From a virus, in the IMG/VR virus record IMGVR_UViG_3300022921_000129, positions 1-21,699 of that record: 21,699 bases of DNA; one strand, 5' to 3'. Below, in pieces: positions 6,701 to 21,699 of the stretch. The notes below the pieces were generated by a model. It was not told the origin of the DNA. It was given only the letters and a program-made list of their open reading frames with translations, and did no database searches. Each line of letters begins with the position of its first letter. Position 1 is the first letter of the stretch. The translations under genes and the position numbers were made by a program.

Positions 6701-7365
6701 GCGGTAGCTGCTCCAGCAGCACCTAACCCAATATTTTCTTTTGAAAACATCATAGCGAAACTTCTTGCTCCGTATAATAATGCAGCTTGAGGGTTTCTTA
6801 TAGTTGCGCCTACAGCTCCTGCAAACCAGTCAGGTACTATACCTGTGTTGGCAGTAGATATTGCGTCAAAGTCTTTCTCCCATTGTTCTTCTCCTTCTGT
6901 TAAGCCAGATGCATCTTGCTTTTGCCAAAGATCTAATAATTTTTGAGCATCTTCATCGCTTATATTTTCAGCATATTTATCAGAAAAAATAGCTTTAGAT
7001 AGGTAATCGTCTAAATCAGCTTGTATTTGACCTCCGGACCACGCTGTAGCCATTTGTTGAAAGAAATTATCTTTCTTTTCTTCAGCATCAGGATATTGGG
7101 CTAAAAATTTATCTGTTAGATTTTCTGGTATTTCATAAGTGTCATCACCTACTTTATATTTTTTAGTACGTGATACCGATGAAGTACTTTCCGATTTGGA
7201 TTCCATACCGGGCGCTGCAGTTTCTTCCACAGGCGCACCCGAAACCTGCGGTTGTGTCTTTCCCGCTTCTTCGTTTAAAACTGCATTTGGATATGCGGAT
7301 AAAAACTCTTGGACTTTGTCCTCGGGAATATTATAAATATCTTCTCCTACTTTATAAACAGGCAT
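757..7365 (-). CDS. Giant multidomain virion / ejection protein with HExxH metallopeptidase motif
   Basis: This 2202-residue protein takes up almost a third of the window. Visible parts in order are as follows. Two copies of a short motif (YKVG-D-Y-IPE then FL-YP-A) lie at residues 4-28 and 70-94, joined by a Ser/Glu/Thr-rich linker. Gly/Ala-rich hydrophobic stretches occupy about 212-265 and 296-362. A charged coiled coil runs from about 459 to 545. A zinc-peptidase-type motif GAHEVLHG has H634, E635 and H638. Long helical domains follow. The C-terminal region contains ILRAGYLPTQFADSFAIAFG and RLVLAFGNTPMQYARITKK, a hydrophobic segment near 1996-2020, an acidic patch (DDEPDEDDEEVE), and a Lys-rich end. 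Size, position after two smaller ejection candidates, and membrane-prone parts suggest a virion protein injected with the DNA, like T7 gp16, with a peptidase in place of a transglycosylase. It also resembles phage large polyvalent proteins. Enzyme activity is inferred. Confidence 0.75.
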   Translation of the reverse strand: MPVYKVGEDIYNIPEDKVQEFLSAYPNAVLNEEAGKTQPQVSGAPVEETAAPGMESKSESTSSVSRTKKYKVGDDTYEIPENLTDKFLAQYPDAEEKKDNFFQQMATAWSGGQIQADLDDYLSKAIFSDKYAENISDEDAQKLLDLWQKQDASGLTEGEEQWEKDFDAISTANTGIVPDWFAGAVGATIRNPQAALLYGARSFAMMFSKENIGLGAAGAATAAGAGAALGSVAPGIGTAIGGAGGAIKGAMAGLGASVELFAAFGETIRESLPEDYTVEDIQEAFKDEELLTRARNRAATRAGTIAAFDLVAAGGGSKVAGAISKKALAKGVSKKAGAVAAGTAEGLITTTGEFTGELAAQKAAGDELDFKEAVLEVFGVSPTAIGGQVQTARNLTKSPKYKIDGKEMSRAEVNKFIDDNDGMDLSKVNITVENDDLLQNKMLDKQGVARFKTLVDKNITDDAARTRIAELELERAKLASNKTLSAQERKAEVEEEIKTIQAENKPGKGRPTKLVQEQRKEIEQKAEELKVILKQRKVADTVSFAKRAAEQTKGMVEVQDFDSTEAIRKQLFKDFMGDKEALQDLETNILKRKIKVGDKEVNALDYIGGVAYGGKIYINKQVAAKTGQINVGAHEVLHGIINTKISQDKLGGIISDFRKKLSKDDLNTLDNELQRRGYKPDAINDETLTVFSDLVAKNQIKFNEGLFNKIGDFIVTKVLRPLGFKQVGFENGKQVYQFMKEYQKSVSKGELNQATLDAIGRAADVRASKPKIQLSKVDVNSFVTTNSLEEWKASGADEVIANLYFEDYFDKIAEVQMAKPFDKSKTTMLRDLPGFLPEDFKSEFMNKMIQHIRNFDPSKNDSLEGWINSQISNKVKQVLKEGKVTTQTFEEDIDSGRQFAADDSYEIADEFEQIDEYGFDIELVDNNGELINPIEFLDEDSRDEYRAIIREELKNLGDVNDVTFKKLEDLAPQITERAVGIPAAKLVNPKTNITTGQVIAMQDFVIEHVDKLIKLLPEGAVLEAASEKLIGTGTGLPRKLLDAFYIKNPRLKQDQGLYPFSKLEDITKEEFFEAFGIKPDGTKISFNGQDPRAQALFALARLTGKLMTNTAVRQELEYQQASQNTIVDIGAGRSEFQLSIVSAAQEAALSTEDTKNYQPAFDKIVKKNRAALRKMGLTEEMINELASSSTMIADKSSGTQTWLLEDLADFTDFIAGPMAFMPPILTKKRVFINSMLGFHYRVNGFGVKWVKDNGEVSKVKIIKDKDGKISNKQAAGLFAQGALNKSEREILLDENKSENKYSNELKEVLGQIKKVQNQLKFNKATKLETLNATTRYNIYEKLQGLSKKEFLKQKEELISSENAKNKNLLRMLNVKAFNIAMQDYIASLPTPEEKLRALKYAKIIYASSSNIAEGRKAGAKIGGLVYSEDATYYMEHVNSALRMEEQFFKDLIRGNKTTFKQPEVWFIPSWMAKILDSTGFKTANRAEKIKEIRRLSRENNADVVASNASNFQLSIALPLTKMVDNSLNEMVSEKLNIENKSEISEFQARRLGKNKGRFKFFIPPSADDFMGLMYYLVRKGRQGDADLAFIKKTLIDPFAKAQRVYEEYKMNTLKSYRKLKKSIRNTPAGLKKEAVMGFTNEQALRVFMWNELGYEVPGINQSEISAIREYVSNNKELLDFSRQVQNMLMSDFPQPQESWASGSLTIDILEHINEQARKEFFADFISVAEETFGKMDNRGEIQGPLANKLRAAFGNNYVEALSDVLYRMKVGRSRQFGRNRLVSQLENYINGSIATIMFFNTRSAILQMVSFVNFINFSDNNPIAAAQAYANLPQLSKDVMELMNSDYLVSRRNGLKIDVAADDIAKSAESSANKAGAAITAILRAGYLPTQFADSFAIAFGGAPFFRNRINTYMREGLSESEAKEKAYNDWKENAEESQQSSRPDKISQQQASTLGRLVLAFGNTPMQYARITKKAALDLLAGRGDFKTNMSKVLYYGMVQNIVFSGLQQALFSLWLDDEPDEDDEEVEKYVNVINSAIDGFGRGLGYGGAIAVMVKNVVQEAMNEYGEGGRKNFQDVILEIGTLSPAISSKISRLEQGARTFTWKQELEKVRTEGVSLDNPAFEATGKFVSAITNVPLDRLIRKMDNLSYPVRHEIQTYQAIALALGWGQWELGLKEVNKQEKNKKPKVGYKKKKSAKKKI

Positions 7366-7377
7366 ACTATATTATTT

Positions 7378-8658
7378 TTAATTTACTTTATACTGCGAAA
7401 AATCAGTAGTAATTTCAGTTTCTTGCTGGGTCTGTTCAGGCTGCTGCAATTGTAAACCAAATTCTTTTGCTAAATCTTCAACAGTTATTTTAGACTCTAC
7501 TGAACCTTCAACATTTTCTTCAAATGTTATTTCGCCCGTTTCCTTTTTTTTCATGATGTACTCTTTCTTTTCAACATCATTACTTCCTTTATATTTGAAA
7601 ACAAAATCTTCACCTGGTTTTAAATTGACAATGTTTTTAAAAGCAATTTCTCTGTCTTGAGCATTTAATCCAGTTCTTTTTTCAAGAGGATCTACTGTTT
7701 TAACTTTAGCAGCAGCAGCCTCAGCGGCTTTACGCTCGCGTTCTTGCTGTTCTTTTTGCGCTTGTTTGATACCATCAATTTCTGCAGAATCATCCTCTAT
7801 TCTTGATTGTATATATTCTAATATTACGCCATCAGCAGCTTCTCTTAAGTTATCATTATCAATAATATCCATATAAGAATAATCAACTTTACCTTCTTCT
7901 TGGTCTTTTAATTCTGATTGTGCTAATTCAAAAAGATATGCTCTTTGCGAAGGGTCATTTATTTGCGCAAATATATTGTTTGCAGAACGCGCTAATTTGT
8001 TTTTCATAGAAGTAGCTTCGCCTGCTTTTCTTACGTGATCATCAACTTGTTTTACAGCGTCTTTAATACCCGCTTCAAAAACATCATAAACTTGGCTTCT
8101 GCCTTGGTAGCCAATTGCGCCATCAGGAATTTTATCTACAGAAAGGAAAGATTTTTTCCCGTCTTTAATATAACTGAAACCCATTTGCCCATTTACCTTT
8201 TCAAGTGAAATGTTGTTATCAATAGCGGGTTTATTTTCAATAAAATCTAAAAATTCTGGATTATCCTCAAATTGACCCGGAAGTATTTCATTAAAATCAA
8301 TTTGTAATGCAGCATCTGTTTTTTGAGCAATTGAAGTAATACTTGTATTTAATTCGTCAAGCATGTCTTGTTGCTCGGATTGCGTTGCTGAAGCAAATTT
8401 ATTATTAGAGATATAGTCCTCTTCAACTATGCTTTTAATAGTATCCGCTTTTTGCTTACCATATTTTTTAACCCATTCTGGATATTGCAAATTCTGTTTT
8501 AATTTAGCATTAGCTAAATCATATTTTTGCGCGCGTTCCTTTCTTTCAGCCGCTTTACGTTCTAATTCAGCTTTAATAGGGGCAATGCCTTTTTCAAATG
8601 CTTGCATAAATGCATTTGGATTAGCTATGTAAATTTCACCTGGATTTCTATAACTCAT
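7378..8658 (-). CDS. Putative internal virion / DNA-ejection protein, middle
   Basis: This 426-residue protein sits between the 220-residue and 2202-residue ejection candidates. It is hydrophilic, charged and largely helical. Residues about 20-75 are a Lys/Glu/Ala-rich coil (IKAELERKAAERKERAQKYD), the centre is mixed with a short beta-rich stretch (VNGQMGFSYIKDGKKSFLSV), and a second strong coiled coil follows at about 290-330 (KQAQKEQQERERKAAEAAAA). The C-terminus is Gln/Glu/Thr-rich. There is no signal peptide, membrane segment or catalytic motif. It begins 14 bases after the 220-codon gene and ends 12 bases before the giant gene, both gaps being pure A/T-rich leader. By order it corresponds to the middle internal-core protein of T7-like phages (gp15 position). 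That match is positional only. Confidence 0.6.
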   Translation of the reverse strand: MSYRNPGEIYIANPNAFMQAFEKGIAPIKAELERKAAERKERAQKYDLANAKLKQNLQYPEWVKKYGKQKADTIKSIVEEDYISNNKFASATQSEQQDMLDELNTSITSIAQKTDAALQIDFNEILPGQFEDNPEFLDFIENKPAIDNNISLEKVNGQMGFSYIKDGKKSFLSVDKIPDGAIGYQGRSQVYDVFEAGIKDAVKQVDDHVRKAGEATSMKNKLARSANNIFAQINDPSQRAYLFELAQSELKDQEEGKVDYSYMDIIDNDNLREAADGVILEYIQSRIEDDSAEIDGIKQAQKEQQERERKAAEAAAAKVKTVDPLEKRTGLNAQDREIAFKNIVNLKPGEDFVFKYKGSNDVEKKEYIMKKKETGEITFEENVEGSVESKITVEDLAKEFGLQLQQPEQTQQETEITTDFSQYKVN

Positions 8659-8672
8659 TTTATTATTTTTTA

Positions 8673-9335
8673 TTATTCCGGACTTGCTAAACCTACGCCT
8701 AATCCGACCATTGAACTAAAAGCACTGCCAAACGCTGATGCTTGTGCTTCTTGCATCATAGCAGCTTGGCTAGCATATCTATCAGACATTGATTGTAATC
8801 TATCAAGTTTTTGCATTTCGCGCTCTTCTCTTGTAGCAAACATAAATTGCCTTCCTGCAACATCAGCTTGCTGTAATCTTGATGCTTCTGAAATTTGCAT
8901 TTGTTGCATTTGTTGTTCACCTTGAGCACGCAATCTAGCGTTTTGGGCTTCTTGCTGTTCAATATTAGTTGCAATATCCATTTTAGCTCTTGAAGCAGAT
9001 TGAGCCAACGCGGTTGCTGCACCGGCACCACCACCAGTTGCTCTTAAAACATCTAATGTTTGGGCTAAAGATATATCTGTTTCTCTAGCTCTCATTTCAG
9101 CGGCCCCTGTAGCAACTTGTAAGTTTGCAAAAGGATTTGTTATCATAGAACTTAAGTCCGTAATATTCGCATACGGATTAATAATTTCTTGTCTATTACT
9201 TTCTGCCGCGGCAAGTTGGCGCTCAAATGATCTTTGTTGGCTAGCCGCTCTGCGTCGTCTTTTGCCAGCACCTAATCCTGTAAATAAATTACCTATAGCG
9301 CTTGCGGCCATTAAACCTATGCTTATTGGTTCCAT
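8673..9335 (-). CDS. Putative internal virion / DNA-ejection protein, small
   Basis: This is a 220-residue protein, the first of three ejection-type genes. A hydrophobic N-terminus (about 4-23, ISIGLMAASAIGNLFTGLGA) is followed by a basic patch KRRRR and then a long Ala/Gln/Glu/Arg-rich helical region (about 30-195) with dense glutamines (GEQQMQQMQ). The C-terminus is again small and hydrophobic (FGSAFSSMVGLGVGLAS). This layout, a membrane-prone end plus a coiled-coil body, matches small podovirus ejection proteins such as T7 gp14 or P22 gp7 in style. No sequence homology is claimed. The start overlaps the upstream stop by one base (TAATG). A position right after the nozzle gene and before two larger proteins supports the role. 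Confidence 0.62.
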   Translation of the reverse strand: MEPISIGLMAASAIGNLFTGLGAGKRRRRAASQQRSFERQLAAAESNRQEIINPYANITDLSSMITNPFANLQVATGAAEMRARETDISLAQTLDVLRATGGGAGAATALAQSASRAKMDIATNIEQQEAQNARLRAQGEQQMQQMQISEASRLQQADVAGRQFMFATREEREMQKLDRLQSMSDRYASQAAMMQEAQASAFGSAFSSMVGLGVGLASPE

Positions 9336-12300
9336 TAATATGTATTTATATTATAATTAGAGGAAACTGCAAATAGTTCTCTATATACAGTATCACTTGT
9401 TTTTATAGTTAATTTAGTAAAAAATCCTTTTATACCAGATATTTCTTCACCAAATATTACCTCATTATCAAATGAATAGCTTGGCTGTGTATTTGAAACA
9501 TTTGACAGAGTAGCTGTATATTTTCCAGATTGTCTTTTAAATGTTGAAATATAGAAAGATAAATCATTATCAATATATGAATTGTTATATTCAGATATGT
9601 TCAGTGCTTTATCTGTATCTGTAATTATATCTTGTACTTCCCAGCCAATCGTGCCTTCATAAGAAATGGTTTGGAATACTTTATTTGAAGAAACGGCTGT
9701 ATTTAAAATTAATTCAATTTCAGAATTATAATTTGAGCTGTAGAAGTTATTATAAGTTGAACCCGTATAATGCTTCCAAATATTGTTATCTTTTATAGTA
9801 AAGAATTGACTATTTAAACTAAAGCCAGCAACAGGCAAGAAACTATATCTTGATGTCCAACCATTTACACTTTCATCAAAGCCAATAGTTGTAGTATTAT
9901 GAGTTAATATGTATTCGTTATTATGCTCATCATACATTCCTTGTGTAAAATCCGAACTTTCTGATAATAAATCTCTGAAATAACTACGCATAGAATAATT
10001 AGATATTTCAGTAATACCATCTCTTGAAAGTCTTAATACAGCTCTTTTAGGCTTATCTACAAAATACTTTCTGCCTGCTTTATAAGCAAAGCTTTCAGGA
10101 TTTTTGCCGATACCATAGTTGGTACCATAAGGTATAATTTGACCAATAACCGCCATCCCGGAAGATGTAATAGTTCCGCCTTCGGCTGTATAAATTGCGT
10201 CTTTATCAATGAGAGCGCTTGATACTCTTTCCTCCTGAAATATATTTAAATTAGTATCTTCTGCAAAAAGCTTTTGAATACTACCATACTGTATATCTAC
10301 AGCTTTAATTATATTTTGATTAGACGGGTATTCATTAAGCGCATTGAAATTTGTTCTTGAATTAAATATACCTGAGTATATTAATGAGTTTTCAAGATTT
10401 GTTTGTTTGTAGTTTTCATCAGTTATATGGGCAATAACACCGTAATCAACACTGTCCTTATTAAAATCACCATATAATCTTGATTCTTCAATGTACCAAT
10501 TATCAGTGCCTGTTTGATCACCTTTTACAACGAACGTGTTAAAATAATTTATTTTTATTGCGGCGTTTTGTGTTATTTCCGATAATAAACCAGACGTACT
10601 TGTTTCATAATAAATATCTAAAGCACTTTCAAACGGCTCTGTTTCAAATACAGCTAAATCAACCGCTTTTTGTTTTAATCCTACAATATTTGTAGTATCA
10701 TTTAATTCAGCTATAAGATTAGAAGGATTTTCTTTATAAAAACCAACCTCATCAGAATCCGGTATCTCGTCTAATGGTAATTCGCTAAACTGACTTAATG
10801 TACCAATGCGACTAACACTTATATAACCCGCATCTGATTGTATTTGAGAAGCATTTGTTAAAGTATAATTTTCAGAAAAAGGATTTGAATCAGCCACGCT
10901 TAATGAAACGTTTGTGGCAGCACCAGCTGTAACACTTCCTCCAACAACAACTGTTGGGGTTATTAAAGCATTTATTACAATAGTTGTTTGTCCGCCGCCG
11001 GTACCATTAATTGAAAAATCATTAAATTTAAGTATAACGTCAATTTTATCCGATGCAGCAGGCATTTCATCGAATGTTAATCTTCCCGCGTTATTTACAC
11101 CAGCATTGCCTACAAATGTATAATCATTAGAATTTTTAAATTTCCCATTTACAAAAACATAAACAGAATCAGGCGTATTACAATAAAATTCGCCATCGCT
11201 TCCGCAGCTTGTAAAAGCAGGATCAACAGCTAAATCTATATATCCAGTTAAACTTACTTGCGTAAAGTCGTCACCGTTAAATTTTTGTATTTCAGCAGAA
11301 GTATAATTTGTAAAAAAAGCATCGCCGTAAGGTGCTGAGCTTGAATTTTTTATACTATAAGCTATAGATTCTATTTCACCATTAGTTATAGTAAACGGCG
11401 GAAAAACAGCAGCGTAGGTAGACTTATTAATTACTTTAGGATATAATCTTACGTCTGATCTAGCAAAGTCGCCTTCATATACATTGTCTGTATTTCTAGG
11501 TACTTTATTTACGTTGTCTCCTAATAAAGAGATATATGTTTTACCATTATATTCACCGCCGCCTGGAACATAAACATTATAATATTCTTGTTCTGGTTGT
11601 TTTACAACTATTCGATAAGAATACCAATCACCCCAGTCTGATGGCAAAGACGTGAAAGTTAATGTTAAACAATCACCATTCCATGTGTCTACATCAAAAT
11701 TTACTTTTGGGTTAACATAAACCGACGAATCTGGTAATGTTATAACAGGCGACTTTCTTCCGTATTTATCAGAAAGAACAATTCCTAATTCGTACGTTCT
11801 TCTACTTTTAATACTATGTTGTAGCAAATTAGAAAAGTCAGATACTTTTCCATCTACGCCAACTGTAAAATTAAAGTCAGGAACATCTCTGTTTAAAGTT
11901 ATATTGCCATAAACAAGCCTGTTACTTATAATTTCTTGAGCCAATGCCTTTACAGGGGCGTTTTCGTTAACTCTAAGGAGCTGTTGTTCTGGTATTGTAC
12001 TTAACGGCAGCTCAGACTTATAATCGTGCGTTAAAGTAGCTATATCGCTTGATATATCTTTTTTAGCAACAATACGAACAGCTGGAGAATCAGCCTCCTT
12101 CATTAAAATTTCTACGCTTACAATTCTATGTGTTGAATAAGCTTCGCTAGGCATTGTGATTGAAAGCGCAACTTGATTAGCGTGATTTTTAAAATTGTCA
12201 AGTCTACCATTTTTATATGCATTTTCAACGTCTGTTCCTGTTAAAGAATCATTTTGTTGTTTAAACGCTATTGGTGAAAATGGAGCTAATTGCGAATATT

Positions 12301-12904
12301 CGTTATTTTCAAATTTGAATCTATAAGAAAATCTAACAAATTTTTCTTGAATATAATCTGAGCTAATATTAGTGTCATTAGTTAAAGTTGTAATTGATGG
12401 TGCTAAATATGGAGATATTTTTACAACAGATACTTTATCTACGTTACCATTTGTTGTATAATATGCAGAATCACTAGCCGCTTTGTTTAAATCAATTACT
12501 CTTGGGGCATTCACATTGTCTGTCCAAAATAACTGTTCTTCCAAAAGGTTTATACCTGTTATATATTTTGTTGAGTCAAAATTTAAATAAGCACCTTCTG
12601 CAATAACTGTAGCTGTACCGTTAGATTCAACTTGATATATTTTATCCGTAGTGCCTGCTATAAACCAAAAAACACGATCATTCTTATTATCTATAAAATG
12701 ACCAATAGTTTTATCTCCTGAGGGTAGGCTTAAATTAGTAAAGTTAGTATTGCCTAAAATATTATGAGCCGCACCAGCATCTTCGCCGTCTGCCTTTGTT
12801 ATTTGAACATTCAAAGCATCACGGTATTCACCCTCTGGAAGAAGTCTATCGTCCAGGCTTTTATTCATTTTTCCTTTCAGAAAAGTGTTTTTAATTTCAG
12901 GCAT
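9335..12904 (-). CDS. Putative tail nozzle / hub protein (tail tubular protein B-like)
   Basis: This large tail structural protein has 1189 residues. It opens with KGKMNKSLDDRLLPEGEYRD (about 10-29), a signature I associate with nozzle or stabilisation proteins of marine podoviruses. Residues about 60-145 contain propeller-like repeats, including LFWTDNVNAPRVIDL, similar to YWTD-type blades, which fits a beta-propeller as in T7 gp12. The rest is almost wholly beta-rich, Asn/Ser/Tyr-heavy and without membrane segments. An inserted region around 550-690 includes a fibre-like beta-module (579-627) resembling one in the preceding gene, and a glycine/valine/alanine-rich linker after it. Its stop overlaps the next start (TAATG), so the downstream ejection gene may be translated by reinitiation. 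It could instead be a hub carrying receptor-binding parts, since no separate fibre gene is in the window. Confidence 0.72.
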   Translation of the reverse strand: MPEIKNTFLKGKMNKSLDDRLLPEGEYRDALNVQITKADGEDAGAAHNILGNTNFTNLSLPSGDKTIGHFIDNKNDRVFWFIAGTTDKIYQVESNGTATVIAEGAYLNFDSTKYITGINLLEEQLFWTDNVNAPRVIDLNKAASDSAYYTTNGNVDKVSVVKISPYLAPSITTLTNDTNISSDYIQEKFVRFSYRFKFENNEYSQLAPFSPIAFKQQNDSLTGTDVENAYKNGRLDNFKNHANQVALSITMPSEAYSTHRIVSVEILMKEADSPAVRIVAKKDISSDIATLTHDYKSELPLSTIPEQQLLRVNENAPVKALAQEIISNRLVYGNITLNRDVPDFNFTVGVDGKVSDFSNLLQHSIKSRRTYELGIVLSDKYGRKSPVITLPDSSVYVNPKVNFDVDTWNGDCLTLTFTSLPSDWGDWYSYRIVVKQPEQEYYNVYVPGGGEYNGKTYISLLGDNVNKVPRNTDNVYEGDFARSDVRLYPKVINKSTYAAVFPPFTITNGEIESIAYSIKNSSSAPYGDAFFTNYTSAEIQKFNGDDFTQVSLTGYIDLAVDPAFTSCGSDGEFYCNTPDSVYVFVNGKFKNSNDYTFVGNAGVNNAGRLTFDEMPAASDKIDVILKFNDFSINGTGGGQTTIVINALITPTVVVGGSVTAGAATNVSLSVADSNPFSENYTLTNASQIQSDAGYISVSRIGTLSQFSELPLDEIPDSDEVGFYKENPSNLIAELNDTTNIVGLKQKAVDLAVFETEPFESALDIYYETSTSGLLSEITQNAAIKINYFNTFVVKGDQTGTDNWYIEESRLYGDFNKDSVDYGVIAHITDENYKQTNLENSLIYSGIFNSRTNFNALNEYPSNQNIIKAVDIQYGSIQKLFAEDTNLNIFQEERVSSALIDKDAIYTAEGGTITSSGMAVIGQIIPYGTNYGIGKNPESFAYKAGRKYFVDKPKRAVLRLSRDGITEISNYSMRSYFRDLLSESSDFTQGMYDEHNNEYILTHNTTTIGFDESVNGWTSRYSFLPVAGFSLNSQFFTIKDNNIWKHYTGSTYNNFYSSNYNSEIELILNTAVSSNKVFQTISYEGTIGWEVQDIITDTDKALNISEYNNSYIDNDLSFYISTFKRQSGKYTATLSNVSNTQPSYSFDNEVIFGEEISGIKGFFTKLTIKTSDTVYRELFAVSSNYNINTY

Positions 12905-12908
12905 TTAA

Positions 12909-14012
12909 TTAGTGTTTGATATGTTTAGACTTACCTCGCATTACTTGAGTTAATTCAGGTAATTTTAAATCGTATAATCTAAGCTTAGCATTTCGCATCG
13001 CGGCTCTGCGTTCCTTTTTAAATCTATTTACAATATATTCCGGAACTTGCGCCATTGAAGATAAGATAGCATGAGCTACATATTTATATATAGCTTCTTC
13101 TGCTAATTTGTGCACTTTCATTTCTTCGTCAGTGCCTAATCCATCAGAAATATACTTAATAGTAATTAGTACACCTACAAAATTACTTGTAAAATTAATT
13201 GTGCCTTTATTTTCATCAATAATGAAAAATCCATTTTGATTTGTGTTTTCTGGGTCAAGACCATATCTATTCCCGTTTTGAAATAAAGAGTCACCTAAAT
13301 TATCATCACTATGATAATAATCTTGATTACTGTAAGAGCCAGATATATCTTGTATATCTAAATCTTTAAACCTATCATCTGTTACAGGCGAAGTAGTAAC
13401 CAAATTATCCTCGCTGTCGTAGTTGTAATTAAAGTAATCATCCTGTGCAATAGCTTCCGATGGTTTAGAAGTAATTCTTCCACGAGGTATAGAATGTTCA
13501 ATGCCGTAATCATCTACATAAGATATTGATGCATAATTTACATAATCACGTGGCATTGGTATAGAAAGCGTTGGTCCTACTTCAACTTCTTGTATTTTTT
13601 CTACTTTAGTTATATCGTAAGAAAACTCTTGTATTGCACGTTTAACATGAAATAACACATCTGTTCTTTTGGCTCTATTAATAATTTTACCATCACCAAT
13701 ATAATTAACAACAAAATTATTTACAATATCTTTTAACGATGTATATCTATAGTCCCCGTATTTTTTATTCTTAAGCACAATCAGCACTTCAACACCTAAT
13801 AACGGAGCAGTGCTAAATGTTATTTCAGAATTAGAATATGTATATGAAGATTCAGATTGTAATACATTATCTAAATAAACGTAAAAGCTTGAAACTGTTG
13901 CACCTGCCGGTATAGACATTTGATCTAATGAAAAAACTACAGTTGTTCCATCTCCTTCAAATATTTGATTACCGCCGTAATAACTTCTATCTGTTCCTGT
14001 TAAAAGCCCCAT
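12909..14012 (-). CDS. Putative connector / ring protein with N-terminal beta-module
   Basis: This 367-residue protein lies between two tail-structure candidates. It has two parts. Residues about 14-80 form a beta-module of the kind found in phage fibres and adhesins (FYVYLDNVLQ, then YTYSNSEITFSTAP, then VEVLIVL). From about 92 the connector-like core begins (DIVNNFVVNYIGDGKI, KRTDVLFHVKRAIQEFSYDI), with a beta region around 140-190 and a basic helical C-terminus (KKERRAAMRNAKLRLYDL). An aromatic, acidic stretch at about 190-250 looks like a surface loop. It starts right after the previous gene's double stop and ends four bases before the 1189-codon gene. I infer a ring or adaptor at the portal-tail junction. 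The exact family is not established. Confidence 0.65.
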   Translation of the reverse strand: MGLLTGTDRSYYGGNQIFEGDGTTVVFSLDQMSIPAGATVSSFYVYLDNVLQSESSYTYSNSEITFSTAPLLGVEVLIVLKNKKYGDYRYTSLKDIVNNFVVNYIGDGKIINRAKRTDVLFHVKRAIQEFSYDITKVEKIQEVEVGPTLSIPMPRDYVNYASISYVDDYGIEHSIPRGRITSKPSEAIAQDDYFNYNYDSEDNLVTTSPVTDDRFKDLDIQDISGSYSNQDYYHSDDNLGDSLFQNGNRYGLDPENTNQNGFFIIDENKGTINFTSNFVGVLITIKYISDGLGTDEEMKVHKLAEEAIYKYVAHAILSSMAQVPEYIVNRFKKERRAAMRNAKLRLYDLKLPELTQVMRGKSKHIKH

Positions 14013-14015
14013 TTA

Positions 14016-14717
14016 TTAAGAATTTTCTTGATTAAAACTATTTACCTCTTGTTGTTGTGCTGCTTGAATAACTAGCGGGTCTTTTATAATTACACCTGCA
14101 TAAGAAAGTATTTTAATAATTAAAATAGGCTCTTCTGATGGATGCAACTCAAAATCCTGTGATCCGCTTGTTGTGTATGTATATGCAGACGCCCCACCTC
14201 CTGTGTAATTCCAAATTGGATCTGCAGGCACTTTAATATAATCCATTGTAGCAGAGGTAATTGTGCTTGGAAAAACATTTATAATGTTATTTTCAAAATA
14301 ATACAAAGGATAATCAGTAGTTGGAGCAGTTAATTTAGAAGCATTTAAATACGTTAACTCAGATTTTTTAACCGGCTCAATTTGGGTTGTTCTATTATCT
14401 GTTGTTAACTGTATTAGCTTATATACAAGATCCGCTGATATATCACTAGTTCCACTAGTAATAGTAATAGATTTACTTCTTGATAAATAATCAATTTTTT
14501 CTTGTATATTATCAGCTATATCACCGTATTCGCTATTTACGCCTTGTATATTTCTTCTAGTTAAATGCCTATTATAATCATAAAAAGACTTTTCCAACAA
14601 GTCAAGTTGTGCTTGTCGGGCAAGTCTATTAAATTGATCTGGCGTTAAATAACCGCGTTGCTCTTTATTTAATATAGAAAGAACGGTTCTATATACTTTA
14701 TTTACGTCTATAGCCAT
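14016..14717 (-). CDS. Putative head-tail adaptor / connector ring protein
   Basis: This is a 233-residue protein that opens the tail block. The N-terminal helical region (residues 1-80) has the pattern VYRTVLSILNKEQRGYLTPD followed by QFNRLARQAQLDLLEK, which I associate with small structural proteins next to the tail-tube genes of Bacteroidetes phages. The rest is beta-rich and ends in a helical, Gln-rich tail (IQAAQQQEVNSFNQENS). Its place first in the connector set, before a 367-residue and a 1189-residue tail protein, fits an adaptor in the gp4/gp11 (P22/T7) position. The start lies only four bases after the terminator T-run, so its message comes from read-through or a promoter inside upstream genes. 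Stop codons are doubled (TAATAA), with the next ATG immediately after. Function is inferred from place and pattern. Confidence 0.65.
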   Translation of the reverse strand: MAIDVNKVYRTVLSILNKEQRGYLTPDQFNRLARQAQLDLLEKSFYDYNRHLTRRNIQGVNSEYGDIADNIQEKIDYLSRSKSITITSGTSDISADLVYKLIQLTTDNRTTQIEPVKKSELTYLNASKLTAPTTDYPLYYFENNIINVFPSTITSATMDYIKVPADPIWNYTGGGASAYTYTTSGSQDFELHPSEEPILIIKILSYAGVIIKDPLVIQAAQQQEVNSFNQENS

Positions 14718-14721
14718 TGTT

Positions 14722-14748
14722 AAAAAAAATGGAGGCCCGAAGGCCCCC
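14722..14748 (-). terminator. Rho-independent terminator with UUCG loop
   Basis: On the minus strand GGGGGCC (14748-14742) pairs with GGCCTCC (14737-14731) around a TTCG loop, with one G-U pair. The sequence continues with A and eight Ts (14729-14722). This is a textbook intrinsic terminator with the very stable UUCG tetraloop. It lies 12 bases past the stop of the 251-codon gene, and its T-run ends four bases before the next start codon at 14717. Confidence 0.9.
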
Positions 14749-14759
14749 GGGTTATATTT

Positions 14760-15515
14760 TTATTTTAGTTTCTTTTCGATAGTTTGGTAAACTTCGACAC
14801 CTTCGTCGGTTTTAAACCATGCCGCCAATGCTGAATACGGATTTTCATCAAATGGCACAGTAATTAACTTTCTGCCATTACTAGCCCAAGAAAAAGTTCT
14901 CTGATCACCAGCTAATTTGATAATTCCATTTTCTACAGCCTTGATACCAACATTACGTACTTGAATGTTTTCATCATTAGCTAATTCTAAGAACAATTGT
15001 GGATCTCGCTTAGCAAATACTAATAAATCTCTTTTTAACTCGCTAGAAGTCATCTGAGACACCTTAGAACCTACATTAACGCGTACAATTGCTTCAGCAT
15101 GTTCAATGTCTAAGTTTTGAGCAGCCATTAATGCGTCAATCTCCATTTGAATAATATCTAATTCATCTGCAGCTTCTTCTTCAGCATTAAATTCTGCATA
15201 TTTTTTGTTTAGGTCCGGGTGGTACAGCGATAATAACTTTTGTAAAGTTTGTTTTTCACGAGGTACAGATAAAACACCATCTCTAAATATAATGTGGCCA
15301 AGTCTTGCTTCGCCTTTAAATTCATCTACAAATACTGATTGTTGATTTGTTGTGAATTTTAATTCTCTTTCAAATCCTTTTTCTTCATCAAACCAAAAAA
15401 TTCCTTTGCTTCTTAGTTTGTGTACAATAGGCGATTTGTTTCCTAATAAATAATAATTTCTGTCTTTAATCTCCCATGTGTTTTTAGCGGGAGCAGCTTT
15501 AGCTTTAGTTGCCAT
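14760..15515 (-). CDS. Conserved-type hypothetical protein downstream of the capsid gene
   Basis: This is a 251-residue protein I do not recognise with confidence. The N-terminus (MATKAKAAPAKN) is Ala/Lys-rich. Residues about 17-100 are a beta-rich stretch with aromatic residues (NYYLLGNKSP, KGIFWFDEEKGFEREL, GHIIFRDGVLSVPREKQ). Residues 110-150 are acidic and helical (EEEAADELDIIQMEID), and the C-terminal half looks helical with a final aromatic segment. There is no signal peptide, membrane segment or catalytic motif. It sits alone between two hairpins, one after the capsid gene and a terminator just past its own stop, with an AT-rich 77-base leader. Position next to the capsid gene suggests a head-decoration, head-completion or assembly role, but that is inference only. 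Confidence 0.75.
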   Translation of the reverse strand: MATKAKAAPAKNTWEIKDRNYYLLGNKSPIVHKLRSKGIFWFDEEKGFERELKFTTNQQSVFVDEFKGEARLGHIIFRDGVLSVPREKQTLQKLLSLYHPDLNKKYAEFNAEEEAADELDIIQMEIDALMAAQNLDIEHAEAIVRVNVGSKVSQMTSSELKRDLLVFAKRDPQLFLELANDENIQVRNVGIKAVENGIIKLAGDQRTFSWASNGRKLITVPFDENPYSALAAWFKTDEGVEVYQTIEKKLK

Positions 15516-15540
15516 AATATGATAAAATATAAATTAAAAA
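15516..15540 (-). promoter_or_regulatory. AT-rich leader of the 251-codon gene, with a 12-base repeat shared with the scaffold leader
   Basis: Between the capsid-gene hairpin and the ATG at 15515 the minus strand is almost pure A/T. It contains ATATTTTATCAT at 15530-15519. The same 12 bases end at the scaffold start codon (18208-18197). The block has no Shine-Dalgarno sequence, as is usual in Bacteroidota, where A/T-rich leaders guide initiation. It could be a translation-enhancing leader or part of a late promoter of the TAnnTTTG type, though that box is not clearly matched. Confidence 0.3.
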
Positions 15541-15585
15541 GTAAGTAAAAACTTACCCCCGCCGTATGACGAGGGCAGTTCTTAC
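15541..15585 (-). terminator. Long hairpin after the capsid gene, putative terminator or 3'-end stabiliser
   Basis: Read on the minus strand, bases 15585-15570 can pair with 15561-15545 to give about 16 pairs with three G-U pairs and one bulged A around an eight-base loop. The GC-rich top is CCCTCG with CGGGGG. The 3' side ends in a TTTTT run, and a second T-run follows at about 15540-15536. A smaller competing hairpin, GTAAGT-TTTT-ACTTAC, occupies 15556-15541 and uses part of the same 3' arm. The position, starting eight bases after the capsid stop, fits a terminator or an mRNA-protecting 3' structure. Confidence 0.6.
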
Positions 15586-15592
15586 AGTTTGT

Positions 15593-16993
15593 TTATTGGA
15601 AAAGGATAAAGTTGTTAGCTCCTTGAACCACTAGACATCTTTCAGATAGGAAGTGTACCTCCATTGCATCAAGATCGCTAGTTTGAGCACCAACCGAACC
15701 AGTAACCCAAGACTTCATTCTACGATTATCAGCCTCAGAAGCACGGTAACGTACGTGTAGGAACGGACGCTTAATGTTTTTACCAAGGATTTGATCGTAT
15801 ACTGATGAAGTTCCAGCAGGTACTAATACTCCTTTAACACCAGAGATTTGTCCACGAGTTGCGTGGTCGTTTAGATATTTCCAGTCAGTTTTGTAGAAAT
15901 CGTAAGATCCACGACGGAAACCTCTAAATCCTAGGTTAAGTGCCATATCCTCAGAGTTAGAGAATACACCATAAGCAGTACCACCAGCAGAACCAGCAGA
16001 AATGTTAGCTAAAGCGTCATCGAAGATAAGGTTTGAAGCACGATTTAAGAAAAGCATGTTTTCTTCAATAGCACCTTGCTTATCAAGCTCAGCTAATAAA
16101 GTATCAAAGTCAGCGATAAGGTCACTTGCAACATCAAATACGTTGTCAGCAGTGATACCTCTGTCTTCAATTTGCTTGAAGAAACCGTCAGTACCTTTAA
16201 GACCAGCGCCTAAAGCAGCAGAACCAGTAGCAGCTTTTTCAGCTTCTACCATAGTCATTTCAAGGTAGTCCTCATAACGAGTACGAGTATCACCAAGAGC
16301 TTTTAAATACCATAAGTATCCTGTTTGTCCGTCTTCACCAGTTACTTCAACCCAACCAATTTGAGAAGCGTCAGATCCTGAAACCTCAAATTTGTCTTTA
16401 ATAATGATTGGGGTGTTAGTGAAAGATTCGAATTTAGGCTCTACAGAACCGCTCATTCCAGCAGTACCTTTTTTGAATTCAGAACCAAATACGAAAAGTT
16501 TTACAGCCTCACCATCAGCAAAACCAGCAGCAGCTAGTGTAGCAGCAGAGTAAGGAAGTACAGTGATAGTATCAAGATCACCATCAGAGTCAGCATCAGA
16601 AGTTGCAGATACATAACCTTTAACAACGTTTCCGTTAGCATCCTCGATAACAACAGTTTGTCCAACGCGCACAACGTGTCCTTCACCGATGTTAACAGTT
16701 CCAGAAGCAGCAGTAGTCACAGTTCCTGAATAGAAAATGTGAAGACGACCTTGCTCAGACCAAATAACTTGATCAGAAGACATAGGCATTTCAGCTCCAA
16801 CCATACGAAGGAAAGAAGAGATTGAACGGTTACCGTAACGCTCTACTTCAGCCTCATATAGATCTGGAAGGTATTGTTGAGACCAGTTAGCTCCACCGGA
16901 CCCGTGGAAGTTTAAGTAGTTGCTTGAAAGCGCAACTTTTTGTACATACGGAGTAAATTCCGCAGGTGTACCTAAATTAGCAATTGCAGCCAT
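15593..16993 (-). CDS. Major capsid protein (HK97-fold type)
   Basis: This is the 466-residue major head protein. The N-terminal segment (about 22-90) has the pattern of marine Bacteroidetes-phage capsid proteins: SSNYLN, NWSQQYLPDLYEAEVERYG, then SISSFLR and QVIWSEQGRLH. Residues about 92-175 form a beta-rich insertion with a DADSDGDLD loop (133-141). The stretch from about 230 onward alternates helices and strands as expected for the A and P domains. Codon use differs from the neighbours: Arg is mostly CGT, and Gly GGT, Ala GCT and Phe TTC are frequent, as in very highly expressed genes. The leader ends in an A-run before ATG. A long hairpin follows the stop by about eight bases. Scaffold upstream and connector genes downstream support the call. 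No obvious N-terminal propeptide is seen. Confidence 0.88.
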   Translation of the reverse strand: MAAIANLGTPAEFTPYVQKVALSSNYLNFHGSGGANWSQQYLPDLYEAEVERYGNRSISSFLRMVGAEMPMSSDQVIWSEQGRLHIFYSGTVTTAASGTVNIGEGHVVRVGQTVVIEDANGNVVKGYVSATSDADSDGDLDTITVLPYSAATLAAAGFADGEAVKLFVFGSEFKKGTAGMSGSVEPKFESFTNTPIIIKDKFEVSGSDASQIGWVEVTGEDGQTGYLWYLKALGDTRTRYEDYLEMTMVEAEKAATGSAALGAGLKGTDGFFKQIEDRGITADNVFDVASDLIADFDTLLAELDKQGAIEENMLFLNRASNLIFDDALANISAGSAGGTAYGVFSNSEDMALNLGFRGFRRGSYDFYKTDWKYLNDHATRGQISGVKGVLVPAGTSSVYDQILGKNIKRPFLHVRYRASEADNRRMKSWVTGSVGAQTSDLDAMEVHFLSERCLVVQGANNFILFQ

Positions 16994-17010
16994 TTTTTAG
17001 TGTGTTTTAA

Positions 17011-18198
17011 TTATTGTTTTAGTTTTACTTTTAATTTCGAACCATCATCGCCACTTATAGCTCTAACTTTCATGCCACCTGCTTCAATAACGCTACCCGC
17101 GCTTTTACGTGCATCCATATTAATATTTTTGGATTGTGCATTTAGTTGTCGTATTGCATCAGCTTTGCCTTGCTCATAAAAATGATTAGCAAGAGAATCT
17201 GCATTACGCGCTGCAAATAATGCTTTATGATAGCCAACGCCGTCTTTTAAAGTATTATTCTCATCTAAAAAATTTGAGAATGCATTTAAAATATCGCTTT
17301 GAGCTTCTTTGGTAGAATTAACATCTTTTACATTAAATCTAAATTTCTTGTCTCCAACTTTGAAATCAAAACCTTTAAAATCTTCGTTGAATACTTGATT
17401 AGTTTTTTCTGTAAAATTTTTAATACTACGTTCCTGCGTTTGCTGTAGTTCAGATTGTTCTTCTTTATATCGATTGAAGAAGTTAACCGCTTCTTGTTGC
17501 TCAGGCGTTAAACGAGAACCCAACTTGACTTCATCGTAATATTTATCCTTAAGCGAGTTTAAGAAGTTTTTAGCTTCTGCTATCTCTTCTTTAAATGCAA
17601 GCTTTTTACGTCTTACATCTCTTTCTTCATCTAATTCTTCGTCATAAGAAAAATTGTCTTCAATTAAAAAGTCAATTTCATCTTGGCTTAGATGAGGTTT
17701 CTTTTGTTTATAGTATTCTCGTAATAACGCATTGTCATCAATATTACTATAATCTGTATTTAGCCTAACATAATCTTCAAGAGTACCGCCTGTTTCATTC
17801 ATAAAGTCTACAACTTTTTGAATATTTTCAGGTAATTCAATTTGTGGGTTTTCTGCAGCTTCATTAATAACGTCTTGTTTTGTTACTTCTGGCTCAGCTG
17901 GAGGTTCTTCAATTTCAGTTATTTTTTCAACAACTGGGTTTTCTTCTCCCACTTCTTGCAGTTCCACGTTGGTTTCTTGCCCGCTTTCTTCATTTTGTTG
18001 TACTGGCTCCAACACGCTGCTCTCTGTTTCCTGTTCTTGAACGGCATCTTGTTCTTGTGTTTCGTTAGCGTTTAAGTTTACTTTGTAAACACCATCTTCT
18101 AATGTAGTCTTTACCCCTGCGTCTTCAAGCACTTGTTCTTCGCGCTCTGCCGCGGTTGGAGTTTCGTCTACGATTGGTTCATTCGTGTTTTCTGACAT
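17011..18198 (-). CDS. Putative capsid scaffolding protein
   Basis: This is a 395-residue protein between portal and major capsid protein, the standard place for a scaffold that templates procapsid assembly and then leaves. The first ~125 residues are extremely acidic and Glu/Gln-rich (for example QEQDAVQEQETESSVLEP) and look disordered. The middle (about 190-300) is charged and helical. The last ten residues turn basic (GSKLKVKLKQ), which resembles the basic capsid-binding tail of known scaffolds. No protease motif is evident, so a scaffold-protease fusion is unlikely. The start at 18198 has a very AT-rich leader with no Shine-Dalgarno sequence. The capsid gene begins 17 bases after the stop. 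The call rests on position and composition, which are good but not decisive. Confidence 0.72.
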   Translation of the reverse strand: MSENTNEPIVDETPTAAEREEQVLEDAGVKTTLEDGVYKVNLNANETQEQDAVQEQETESSVLEPVQQNEESGQETNVELQEVGEENPVVEKITEIEEPPAEPEVTKQDVINEAAENPQIELPENIQKVVDFMNETGGTLEDYVRLNTDYSNIDDNALLREYYKQKKPHLSQDEIDFLIEDNFSYDEELDEERDVRRKKLAFKEEIAEAKNFLNSLKDKYYDEVKLGSRLTPEQQEAVNFFNRYKEEQSELQQTQERSIKNFTEKTNQVFNEDFKGFDFKVGDKKFRFNVKDVNSTKEAQSDILNAFSNFLDENNTLKDGVGYHKALFAARNADSLANHFYEQGKADAIRQLNAQSKNINMDARKSAGSVIEAGGMKVRAISGDDGSKLKVKLKQ

Positions 18199-18226
18199 GA
18201 TAAAATATTATATAAGTTATTAATTA

Positions 18227-20644
18227 TTACTTAGGTTCAAACGACCCTAAGTCAAATCCGCCAAGTACGTCATTACCTGAGGATTCAAAGTTTTTAGGAC
18301 CTGCCATCCCTTTTCGCTGCTCAATTAATTCAGATTGTTGAGTAGCTTGTATTTTAGTTCGCTTATCTTTGCGATCTTCTTTATACTTCTCTTTACTATT
18401 AATTACGTTTAAATCAGCTTCTTTAAGCCTCATGTTTAGCTCAAACTCTTTCTCCATAAGCTCTTTTTTAATTTGTGCTTCTCTTTCTAGTTTAGCAATA
18501 TCAAATTCTAATTGGGCTTTGTTGATTTGAACTTTAGACGAAGCAATAGCTTGCTCTTTCTGCATATCTGCCTGTGCTGCCGCTTGAGCAGCTGCTGTAT
18601 TTGATTCAGTCTGCGCTTGAATATTTTGCATTTGAACTTGTCTATCTTGCTCAAATTTCTTACGTCTTCTTAGTTTAAGTAGTTGATTAGCAAGCTTTAT
18701 GTTTTTAATTTCTCTAATATCAATAGCGTCTTCTAAAAATATTTGATCTTTTTGAAGAGCCATTTGAATATTATTCTCAAGCAATTGCTTTTCTTCTTCG
18801 TCAGGCGCAAGCTCTAAGAAAATACCAAAATCATGTAAATGAAGGTTTTCAATTTCTTTTAATGCACCAACATTAAATTTACCAATGCCTTGTATAAATG
18901 CTTGTGTTGTATTGCCAAATTCAAGTACATCAGATATTCTAAGTGAAATAGCTTCAGCAGTTTTTAACGTTAAATACAATCCAGCTTGAAGCACGTGTCT
19001 TGTAGCTGTATTTGAATTTGCGGCAGCAAGTTTTTGCAGGCCTACTAATGCGTTCTTATCAGGCATACTGCCATCTCTAGCTTCATTAAGACCAGTAACA
19101 TCCCGCATCATACTTAAATAATAATTGTACGAAGCAATCAGGCTATTAATTTTTGAATTACCAGAGCTTGATTGTAATTCTTGAACAGGCATACGACCGT
19201 GATTAAACTCGCCGTCTTGTGTCATTGATCTACCAATAACAGAACCTGTTTGAAAATACATATTTAAAGCTTCTTGCGGATTATAGTTTGTGCCATTACC
19301 CAAATCAATTTCAGCAATACCATCAGCGTCGAGGTATACACCATCGGGTACCATTCTCGACATTACTTGCTGCAGCTTTAAATGAGTTAGTTGAATCATA
19401 TCAGCAAAACTTGTCATTCTGCTAACTAGTGATTCAATTTTACCTTTATAAATTCTTGGCGCTATAATATTATATGACATATTAACTTTAGTCGTATCCG
19501 ACTTAGGTCTTGTCATATTTTCAGCAATCTGCCACTTAAGCAATTTATTATGACCAATTATTTTTGCACCTTCATAAAGAACTTCAATAGATCTATTTAC
19601 TTTTTCAAATCTTGAGCGCTCATCTTTTGGCGGATTAAATTGATCTGTTTTTTCAATTGCTTTATCAGCGCCAGTAGCCGTTTGTTTTATTTTGTATACT
19701 TGATTTTGAAATGTTTTATATTCAAAATGCATTACATATACGTGGTTAGTATCTTCTGCATCTGCACTTGCATAGCTTTTATTATAAAGCATGGCGTTAC
19801 TACCAGTACCTTCTATTTCTTTTATATCTTCATTAGTTAATTCCGGAAATTGCTTTTTTAATTCAGGAATACTAACTCTTCTTATTTCTCCTACATAATA
19901 TATATCATCAAAATAAGGTGATTCTGTATATGAATAAACAATATCTGCAGGATCAACATATTCTACTCTAATTCCTTCCGCGGTATTAAACGTGGTCTTA
20001 TCACATGCAATACCAATAACCGCCAAATCATAATCAAGCCGTTTCTTTAATAAATGATACTTGTTATAATCTAATACGTTATTAATAGCTTCTTCTTCTG
20101 CAATTTCAATTGATTGCTTATAATCTAACTGCATGTGCAATTGTAACTCTTCATTACTTTGCGGCAATGCTTCTGGATTAGTATTAAACATATTCAATCC
20201 AAAGTTTTGCTGCATTGATTCTAGCAATCCTTTATTTTGCATATCTCTAACAATTGACTCTACATATTGCGTTCTTTCTTGCAATGATGACGGGTCCTGT
20301 GAATATGCTTTGATGTCATACATTCTTTCGTTAATACCATTAACCACAATATCCACGAACTTCGGGATAATTGGAACAGGTTTCCAATCAAGATTAAGAT
20401 AAGATAAATCACCATTGATTGATAATTCATCTTTATACTTTTGAATTGATTGCTCTCCTCTAGCGTATAATCTTAATCTGTGAAAGTTATCCCTGTTAGC
20501 GTAATAGCGTATACCTCCATTATCTCTTTTGAACCATTCAGATTCAATAGCCTTAGCGACTTCCATCCCATATTTCAGGTCTGCCTTTTCAGCATCACTA
20601 ACAGCTTGGCTAGGAAATATACCCTTTGGTAATACTTTCGACAT
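18227..20644 (-). CDS. Portal protein
   Basis: This is the head-to-tail portal, a dodecameric ring at one capsid vertex through which DNA enters and leaves. It is 805 residues, longer than most portals (about 500-700) and like the large portals of P22-type and crAss-like phages. The N-terminus carries a stretch typical of these portals (RLYARGEQSIQKY, then PKFVDIVVNGINERMYDI, about residues 55-110). The core (about 100-600) is mixed alpha/beta with conserved-looking segments such as ARDGSMPDKNALVGLQKLAA. Residues about 645-770 are strongly charged, Gln/Ala/Glu-rich and predicted coiled coil, which fits a long C-terminal barrel. The start directly follows the terminase stop, and 28 bases separate it from the scaffold gene. 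Identification rests on length, composition and gene order. No homology search was possible. Confidence 0.85.
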   Translation of the reverse strand: MSKVLPKGIFPSQAVSDAEKADLKYGMEVAKAIESEWFKRDNGGIRYYANRDNFHRLRLYARGEQSIQKYKDELSINGDLSYLNLDWKPVPIIPKFVDIVVNGINERMYDIKAYSQDPSSLQERTQYVESIVRDMQNKGLLESMQQNFGLNMFNTNPEALPQSNEELQLHMQLDYKQSIEIAEEEAINNVLDYNKYHLLKKRLDYDLAVIGIACDKTTFNTAEGIRVEYVDPADIVYSYTESPYFDDIYYVGEIRRVSIPELKKQFPELTNEDIKEIEGTGSNAMLYNKSYASADAEDTNHVYVMHFEYKTFQNQVYKIKQTATGADKAIEKTDQFNPPKDERSRFEKVNRSIEVLYEGAKIIGHNKLLKWQIAENMTRPKSDTTKVNMSYNIIAPRIYKGKIESLVSRMTSFADMIQLTHLKLQQVMSRMVPDGVYLDADGIAEIDLGNGTNYNPQEALNMYFQTGSVIGRSMTQDGEFNHGRMPVQELQSSSGNSKINSLIASYNYYLSMMRDVTGLNEARDGSMPDKNALVGLQKLAAANSNTATRHVLQAGLYLTLKTAEAISLRISDVLEFGNTTQAFIQGIGKFNVGALKEIENLHLHDFGIFLELAPDEEEKQLLENNIQMALQKDQIFLEDAIDIREIKNIKLANQLLKLRRRKKFEQDRQVQMQNIQAQTESNTAAAQAAAQADMQKEQAIASSKVQINKAQLEFDIAKLEREAQIKKELMEKEFELNMRLKEADLNVINSKEKYKEDRKDKRTKIQATQQSELIEQRKGMAGPKNFESSGNDVLGGFDLGSFEPK

Positions 20645-21699
20645 TTATTCTATTATTTTTGAAATTGATCCTTGATTATTATATTTTTTAAATCCAAAGT
20701 TTAAAACTTTAGTTTGTCTTTCTTGCCTCGGCGTATATAAATGCCTATTGCATGCCATTATAGCTAGACCCGAACTAATTGCCGCGTCAAACTTGGTTCT
20801 ATTATTTATATCAAATTTTGCCCAGTCATTTAATGTATTATTGAAATACATTGTTCCGTAAGAACCGTCCATTTGCAAACCAATATGTTTGTCTATATAA
20901 GACTCAATAGCGGCTGCGTGTGCTTGCTTTATATCTTCAGATGAGTTTGGTATACCACCAATTTCTTTTTCTGTAGCTGAAAGCTTATTAAATGTTTTAT
21001 CAGGTCTATTCATTGAATAACCTCTGTAACCTCTTCTCTTTAAATAATAAAGCAAACGAGGCTTATTATTTTCAGCAAGTAACGGCATTCCGTAAAACAC
21101 TAACGCCATTAATACGTCTTCAAAAAATATTTCCGCTGTTTGTGGCCTAGCTATATACTCTAAAAAGAAAGTGTTTGGAGGCGCATCCTCCATACTAAAC
21201 TTTGTAAGTCCGTGTAACGAACCTTTAGAGCCCTTGCCTCCAACAGTACCGGATATATCGTAAGAGTCACATCCAAAAGCGCCCATGTGCTCATTACCGG
21301 GATACTTACCTCCATTTTTTAGTATTACGCGATTTTGCAAATTATAACTAGGAATCCAAGATATATTAAACCTCCCGGAAGTATTAGGCGTAAATATTAC
21401 TTTAGAATCTTTAACACCGTTTTCCCATTGAAAGTTGCCTGTTGTAACAACACCCGAGCTTCTTAAATCTTCGTTGTAGTCTATTTGTTCGTATATCTTA
21501 ACTAAATTAAATATACTGTTTTTAGTTTCGTCACGAAATGCATGTTCTTCTGTTCTTGGAAACTGTCTGTAAAATTCATTTAAAGCATCTTGATCTCCTC
21601 TGAGACCTTCTGCTTCATTTTCCCAATGCTCTATTACCCCAACTTCAATAGCCTCTCCCATCGGTCCCTCAGCTGGGTTTGATGGTGTATCGAATACAG
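20645..21699 (-). CDS. terL: Terminase large subunit, C-terminal part (5' end outside window)
   Basis: This is the DNA-packaging motor subunit that cuts concatemeric DNA and feeds it through the portal. Only the C-terminal part is present. The frame stays open from the ATG at 21661 to the window edge (12 further codons), so that ATG is internal and the ATPase domain lies outside. Counting from it, the RNase H-like nuclease domain shows a first acidic site in GAFGCDSYDISG (D132, D135), a middle segment around FFLEYIARPQ with nearby E and D residues (about 165-182), and a last acidic site in KFDAAISSGLA (D292). This three-site layout is that of large-terminase nucleases. The stop codon touches the portal start (TAAATG), and the order terminase-portal-scaffold-capsid is the usual one. 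I am sure of the family. Assigning the individual catalytic residues is inference from their positions. Confidence 0.9.
   Translation of the reverse strand, partial: VFDTPSNPAEGPMGEAIEVGVIEHWENEAEGLRGDQDALNEFYRQFPRTEEHAFRDETKNSIFNLVKIYEQIDYNEDLRSSGVVTTGNFQWENGVKDSKVIFTPNTSGRFNISWIPSYNLQNRVILKNGGKYPGNEHMGAFGCDSYDISGTVGGKGSKGSLHGLTKFSMEDAPPNTFFLEYIARPQTAEIFFEDVLMALVFYGMPLLAENNKPRLLYYLKRRGYRGYSMNRPDKTFNKLSATEKEIGGIPNSSEDIKQAHAAAIESYIDKHIGLQMDGSYGTMYFNNTLNDWAKFDINNRTKFDAAISSGLAIMACNRHLYTPRQERQTKVLNFGFKKYNNQGSISKIIE

Follow-up and report, generated by a model that had tools for sequence, protein, structure and literature searches.

A conserved intrinsic-terminator-like hairpin behind the 251-codon gene of an uncultured phage

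We analyzed a stretch of 21,699 nucleotides, here called the window, which is a 21.7-kb IMG/VR virus record (IMGVR_UViG_3300022921_000129) of an uncultured phage. Its large genes are located on the minus strand in the order 338-codon gene, portal gene, 395-codon gene, capsid gene, and the 251-, 233-, 367-, and 1189-codon genes, followed by more. The portal protein gene (18227 to 20644) was assigned to phrog_6547, and the 395-codon gene (17011 to 18198) lies between the portal and capsid genes. The 466-codon gene (15593 to 16993, phrog_13704) likely encodes the major capsid protein, as the related gene 9 of Calle_1, a member of the same PHROG, is labelled structural or major capsid protein. The 251-codon gene (14760 to 15515, phrog_34748) ends with the stop codon TAA at 14762–14760, and the 233-codon gene for a virion structural protein (14016 to 14717, phrog_14543) begins with the ATG at 14717–14715. 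A 2202-codon protein (757 to 7365) closes the structural gene block. The named relatives are the Flavobacterium elemo phages, Cellulophaga phages phi38:1 and Calle_1 (Pervagoviridae) and phi13:2 and phi18:3 (Pachyviridae), Maribacter phage Panino, and the isolate ctfjg026.

Homologs of the 251 gene are labelled hypothetical in elemo, ctfjg026, Panino, phi38:1, and Calle_1. The AlphaFold model of the 251 protein, built from 31 sequences, had a pLDDT of 84 and a pTM of 0.50, and a Foldseek search of the PDB with this model gave no match at E ≤ 0.001 (best 0.043). A scaffolding role for this protein would be a guess. A PDB sequence search with the alignment of the 233 protein gave chance-level matches only.

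The gap between the 251 and 233 genes is 42 nt long (14759–14718, minus strand). It contains a hairpin, designated as terminator 2, at 14748–14731 (GGGGGCC-UUCG-GGCCUCC), in which a 7-bp stem carries a UUCG loop closed by a C-G pair. A single A at 14730 separates the stem from a run of eight Ts (14729–14722), and AACA (14721–14718) lies between this run and the ATG of the 233 gene. The distances to the ATG given in a preliminary description, four bases from the T-run and 13 bases from the stem, are exact by coordinates. A G-C-rich stem directly before a T-run is the arrangement by which intrinsic terminators are recognized, and terminator 2 has it. RNA folding of 61 nt around terminator 2 gave −14.7 kcal/mol with the hairpin included, and the z-score against shuffles of the same 61 nt was weak (−1.38), because the local base composition already favours pairing.

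We scanned the window for terminator-like sites at two levels of stringency. The loose scan of positions 5000 to 21699 found nine sites against 8.5 expected, which is no excess. The strict scan (stem of at least 6 bp with at least five G-C pairs, followed by at least six Ts in eight) found two sites on the coding strand, at 15577 and 14747/8, one on either side of the 251 gene, when 0.015 per strand were expected from Markov simulations; none of 200 simulations produced a site as strong as terminator 2. The opposite strand gave no site in the strict scan, which contradicts a two-way terminator. No Rfam family matched at the gathering score in the window or in the related loci L067, L053, and L097. 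A chance origin of terminator 2 is ruled out by the strict scan together with the conserved 26-mer described below; the loose scan or the local z-score alone would not exclude it. Judged from its sequence, terminator 2 is a real and conserved intrinsic-terminator-like element, and mostly an ordinary one.

The hairpin and T-run together form an exact 26-mer, GGGGGCCTTCGGGCCTCCATTTTTTT, which was present in eight IMG/VR stretches. In all eight it directly follows the stop codon of a homolog of the 251 gene, and the 251 proteins of these carriers are 66–100% identical; one carrier, L119, is practically the same phage as the window. The 233 gene comes directly after the 26-mer in L117, L120, and L123, an extra gene separates the two in three carriers (L044, L118, and L121), and in L122 another gene follows the 26-mer and the contig stops before any 233 gene. 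The distance from the end of the T-run to the next ATG ranges from four bases in the window to 20 bases. The 26-mer thus stays behind the 251 homolog even when a gene is inserted, indicating that terminator 2 is tied to the 251 gene's end and that its nearness to the next ATG is a by-product. The preliminary description had the terminator pressed against the start of the 233 gene; the spacing is as described, but the hairpin tracks the stop codon of the 251 gene, not the start of the 233 gene. The genes inserted between the 251 and 233 genes (behind the terminator in L044, L118, L121, and L122, and behind the 251 gene in L038) are different, small, and Lys/Arg-rich, with 105–179 codons (that of L122 is cut by the contig end). 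Those of L118 and L121 have a basic C-terminal tail in common, and those of L044 and L122 had no match in PHROGs.

For comparison, homologs of the 233 protein led us to 107 loci (28 plus 80, with one repeat), to which seven phage records were added; the 80 loci are the best 80 of 584, and the sample therefore leans towards the window. The median gaps are 0 nt between the terminase-side gene and the portal gene, 31 nt between the portal and 395 genes, 19 nt between the 395 and capsid genes, 77 nt between the capsid and 251 genes, 58 nt between the 251 and 233 genes, and 3 nt each between the 233 and 367 and the 367 and 1189 genes. Among the examples printed, the short gaps had no hairpin. Hairpins, tails, and folds were counted in gaps of up to 200 nt, with identical gaps counted once, so that L032, L038, and L044 were left out for the 251–233 gap and 34 loci for the capsid–251 gap; the table of 251–233 gaps is also without L018, L035, L036, L106, and L117–L123. 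The longer capsid–251 gaps of these 34 loci (for example L004 and L067) have likewise taken up insertions that contain an open frame.

In 75 of 76 distinct 251–233 gaps we found a hairpin of at least 6 bp, with a median stem of 17 bp, and the single exception, L056, is due to a wrongly chosen ATG and does carry the junction hairpin. The median fold z-score of these gaps was −5.9 (74 of 75 below −2). Among stems of at least 8 bp, 64 of 73 end 9–16 nt before the ATG. Compressed spacing is therefore common among the relatives, although the 13 nt of the window are still the shortest of the 74 cores measured; some relatives come nearer than this if outer A-U pairs are counted as stem. L038, whose 233 protein has 68% identity, has no such hairpin at this junction.

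The other hairpin flanking the 251 gene, hairpin 1, follows the capsid gene at 15585–15545 (core 15577–15554, minus strand). It has a long stem and is T-rich within the lower 3′ arm as well as in the sequence that follows. Of 64 capsid–251 gaps, 62 contained a hairpin of at least 6 bp; the median fold z-score was −5.3 (63 of 63 below −2). With stems of at least 8 bp, five or more of the next eight bases were T in 48 of 62 capsid–251 tails and A in three, whereas at the 251–233 junction they were A in 60 of 73 and T in six; this contrast depends on the assumed stem end. It is mostly gone when at least five Ts starting within 2 nt of the core are required (8/64 vs 9/76) or at least seven Ts in ten (24/64 vs 18/76), because the lower stem of hairpin 1 absorbs Ts. 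Under each of the three definitions, most hairpins of the 251–233 junction have no terminator T-run, so termination may not be their ancestral or shared function. All seven named loci have a T-run terminator after the 251 stop codon (two near-duplicate pairs are included).

A tree of the capsid proteins with 79 rows, labelled by the five-T definition and in four rows by hand, carried 65 A-tailed, eight T-tailed, and four T-tailed junctions with a promoter, and two rows labelled none. The T label needs at least five changes on this tree, so the T-run was repeatedly gained or lost at a junction that kept its hairpin. By these counts, the constant of the family at the 251–233 junction is the hairpin, not the T-run. 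In phi13:2 (L035) and phi18:3 (L036), the 251 homolog is separated from the 233 homolog by a block of small opposite-strand genes, so the junction must be a transcript boundary there.

The near-universal hairpin, its A-rich tail, and the repeated label changes would also suit a different function, in which the hairpin at this junction mainly serves processing or protection of a 3′ end, cutting or capping the message between the 251 and 233 genes, and the T-run is an addition of the window lineage. Among the 17 gaps of one A-tailed group, five of nine core pairs had changed on both sides, and this covariation also favours such a function. The covariance model built from these 17 gaps, however, matched only five of 49 other sources at E ≤ 0.1 and did not match the window, and the consensus of a second group, with five pairs from a poor MAFFT alignment, missed the hairpin. 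RNase III-type processing hairpins have a long double-stranded stem of about 20 bp; the median stem of the relatives is 17 bp, but that of the window has only 7 bp and is followed by a perfect eight-T run, which is the form of a terminator. We consider a processing or protecting function rather unlikely as the main role.

We searched for promoters that could serve the 233 gene. The preliminary description left no room for a promoter behind the terminator, and this is borne out by the 13 nt remaining after the hairpin. TAnnTTTG is the −7 element of sigma-ABfr promoters, whose elements are TTTG/TANNTTTG (PMC6847099). This box precedes the 233 gene in five of five named rows and in none of the 80 IMG/VR rows counted, a figure that makes no statement on all uncultured relatives, since L106, an IMG/VR locus outside these 80 rows, has a terminator and TATCTTTG before the 233 gene. 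Before the 395 gene it was found in five of five named rows and 0 of 77 IMG/VR rows, and before the 251 gene in two named rows and 0 of 83 IMG/VR rows. The coding strand of the window has seven such boxes against 14.4 expected, about half, as if the box were avoided; none lies between 13719 and 21699, and none is present between terminator 2 and the 233 ATG. Among the literature matches listed, none was recognized as dealing with transcription in these phages.

A different candidate is an AT motif, which in the window is flush with the 395 ATG (CTTATATAATATTTTATC, 18216–18199, minus strand) and also precedes the 251 gene (15538–15516, minus strand) as a candidate promoter or start element, where the best-fitting copy is 5 nt off the usual place. 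In most IMG/VR relatives it is strongly conserved and directly abuts the ATG, in 71 rows at the 395 gene (ATTTTATAATATTTTATY) and in 78 rows at the 251 gene (ATTTTATTATATTATATY). It is rare in 12 long records of 38–68 kb, with one to four matches each at up to two mismatches, and the backward control gave one match in each of two records; its positions were compared directly with genes in the fetched loci only. Before the 233 gene the motif was not found, and the leader there is A-rich. The AT motif may act as a promoter of near-leaderless messages or as an element of translation; the promoters at the corresponding positions in named relatives favour the former.

The 233 gene might instead be driven by an unrecognized promoter that overlaps the hairpin or lies inside the 251 gene, leaving little dependence on read-through. 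Matches to the sigma-70 type in 9 of 12 positions lie at 15259–15230 and 14791–14762, and phage-specific promoter types escape scans of this kind. Such sigma-70-like matches are at chance level, however (63 vs 64.4 expected in a loose scan of 5000 to 21699), the 251 gene has neither TAnnTTTG nor a strong match to the AT motif, and the window offers only 13 nt after the hairpin. We regard this promoter as improbable. The search inside the 251 gene proposed in the preliminary description thus gave no sigma-70-like or TAnnTTTG signal above chance, and the best upstream candidate, the AT motif at the 251 ATG, lies outside that gene. Of the two sources proposed there for the downstream genes, leaky termination is the most likely one, supported and not proven, and a promoter inside the upstream gene found no signal above chance.

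We also evaluated ribosome access at the 233 start. Predicted pairing over −13 to +20 was 0.39, within the range of ten window genes (0.26–0.52), which does not bear out strong occlusion by the hairpin, and 64 of 73 relatives have similarly close hairpins; the suggestion that the hairpin hinders ribosome binding was therefore not upheld. Ribosome access on a read-through message looks ordinary in these predictions. That the hairpin is a translational control element of the 233 gene is very improbable: its distance to the ATG is fixed in most relatives and pairing over −20 to −1 (0.56) is the highest of the ten genes, but pairing around the start codon is not out of the ordinary and the same hairpin precedes an unrelated inserted gene in three 26-mer carriers.

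We therefore favour, as the probable explanation, that 14748–14722 is a rho-independent terminator that closes the 251 gene and delimits the head units, and that the 233 gene and those after it are expressed by read-through. The missing T-run in most relatives compared, the locus lacking the hairpin (L038), and the weak z-score of the 61-nt fold count against the terminator reading. The capsid message would end at hairpin 1 and the 251 message at terminator 2, and the two hairpins with the AT motifs would fence two high-output head units, one of the 395 and capsid genes and one of the 251 gene, both inside a longer late operon. Polymerases that read through would supply the 233 and later genes, whose products are presumably needed in lower numbers.

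Bacteriophage T7 offers a close parallel, as its genes 11 and 12 are expressed only by read-through of the terminator Tphi (PMC5592923). Tphi likewise lies behind an abundant head gene product, between the capsid gene 10 and gene 11, and close to the next start: in the T7 record it is annotated at 24210 and the gene 11 ATG is at 24228, with 17 bases from the annotated point to the ATG. Terminator 2 similarly separates a head gene from the structural genes that follow, close to the next ATG. The genes after Tphi have no promoter of their own; in the window neither TAnnTTTG, nor the AT motif, nor an excess of sigma-70-like matches was found there, by scans that other promoter types would escape. 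Tphi stops T7 RNA polymerase, and the polymerase acting in the window may be a different one; unlike T7, the window has two terminators flanking an extra gene, the 251 gene, which separates the capsid gene from terminator 2. The elemo phages, ctfjg026, and phi38:1/Calle_1 have homologous genes in the same order with a terminator directly behind the 251 homolog, but differ from the window by a sigma-ABfr-type box between this terminator and the 233 start. By analogy with T7, terminator 2 is probably a leaky brake between abundant head proteins and scarcer ones.

The less ordinary parts of the locus are computed patterns, namely the family hairpin without a T-run at the same junction and the AT motif at two sites. 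We tentatively raise the possibility that, in this phage lineage, a conserved expression module marks off the capsid and 251 genes. In this module, ATTTTATWATATTWTATY, which abuts the ATG of just two genes, would be a late promoter giving near-leaderless messages; a T-tailed hairpin would follow the capsid gene, and an A-tailed hairpin the 251 gene, about 13 nt before the next ATG. The A-tailed hairpin would divide the transcript other than by intrinsic termination, and on several occasions, the window included, would have evolved into a true terminator or been kept as one. If true, such a module is so far undescribed. The junction offers a possible way for this uncultured phage group to set the ratio of head proteins to connector and tail proteins. 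The relatives form a natural series at one homologous junction, with a terminator and promoter, a terminator alone, or a hairpin without a T-run, so that one can test whether different means lead to the same ratio. The AT motif would also be a candidate late-promoter motif for phages that have no cultured host.
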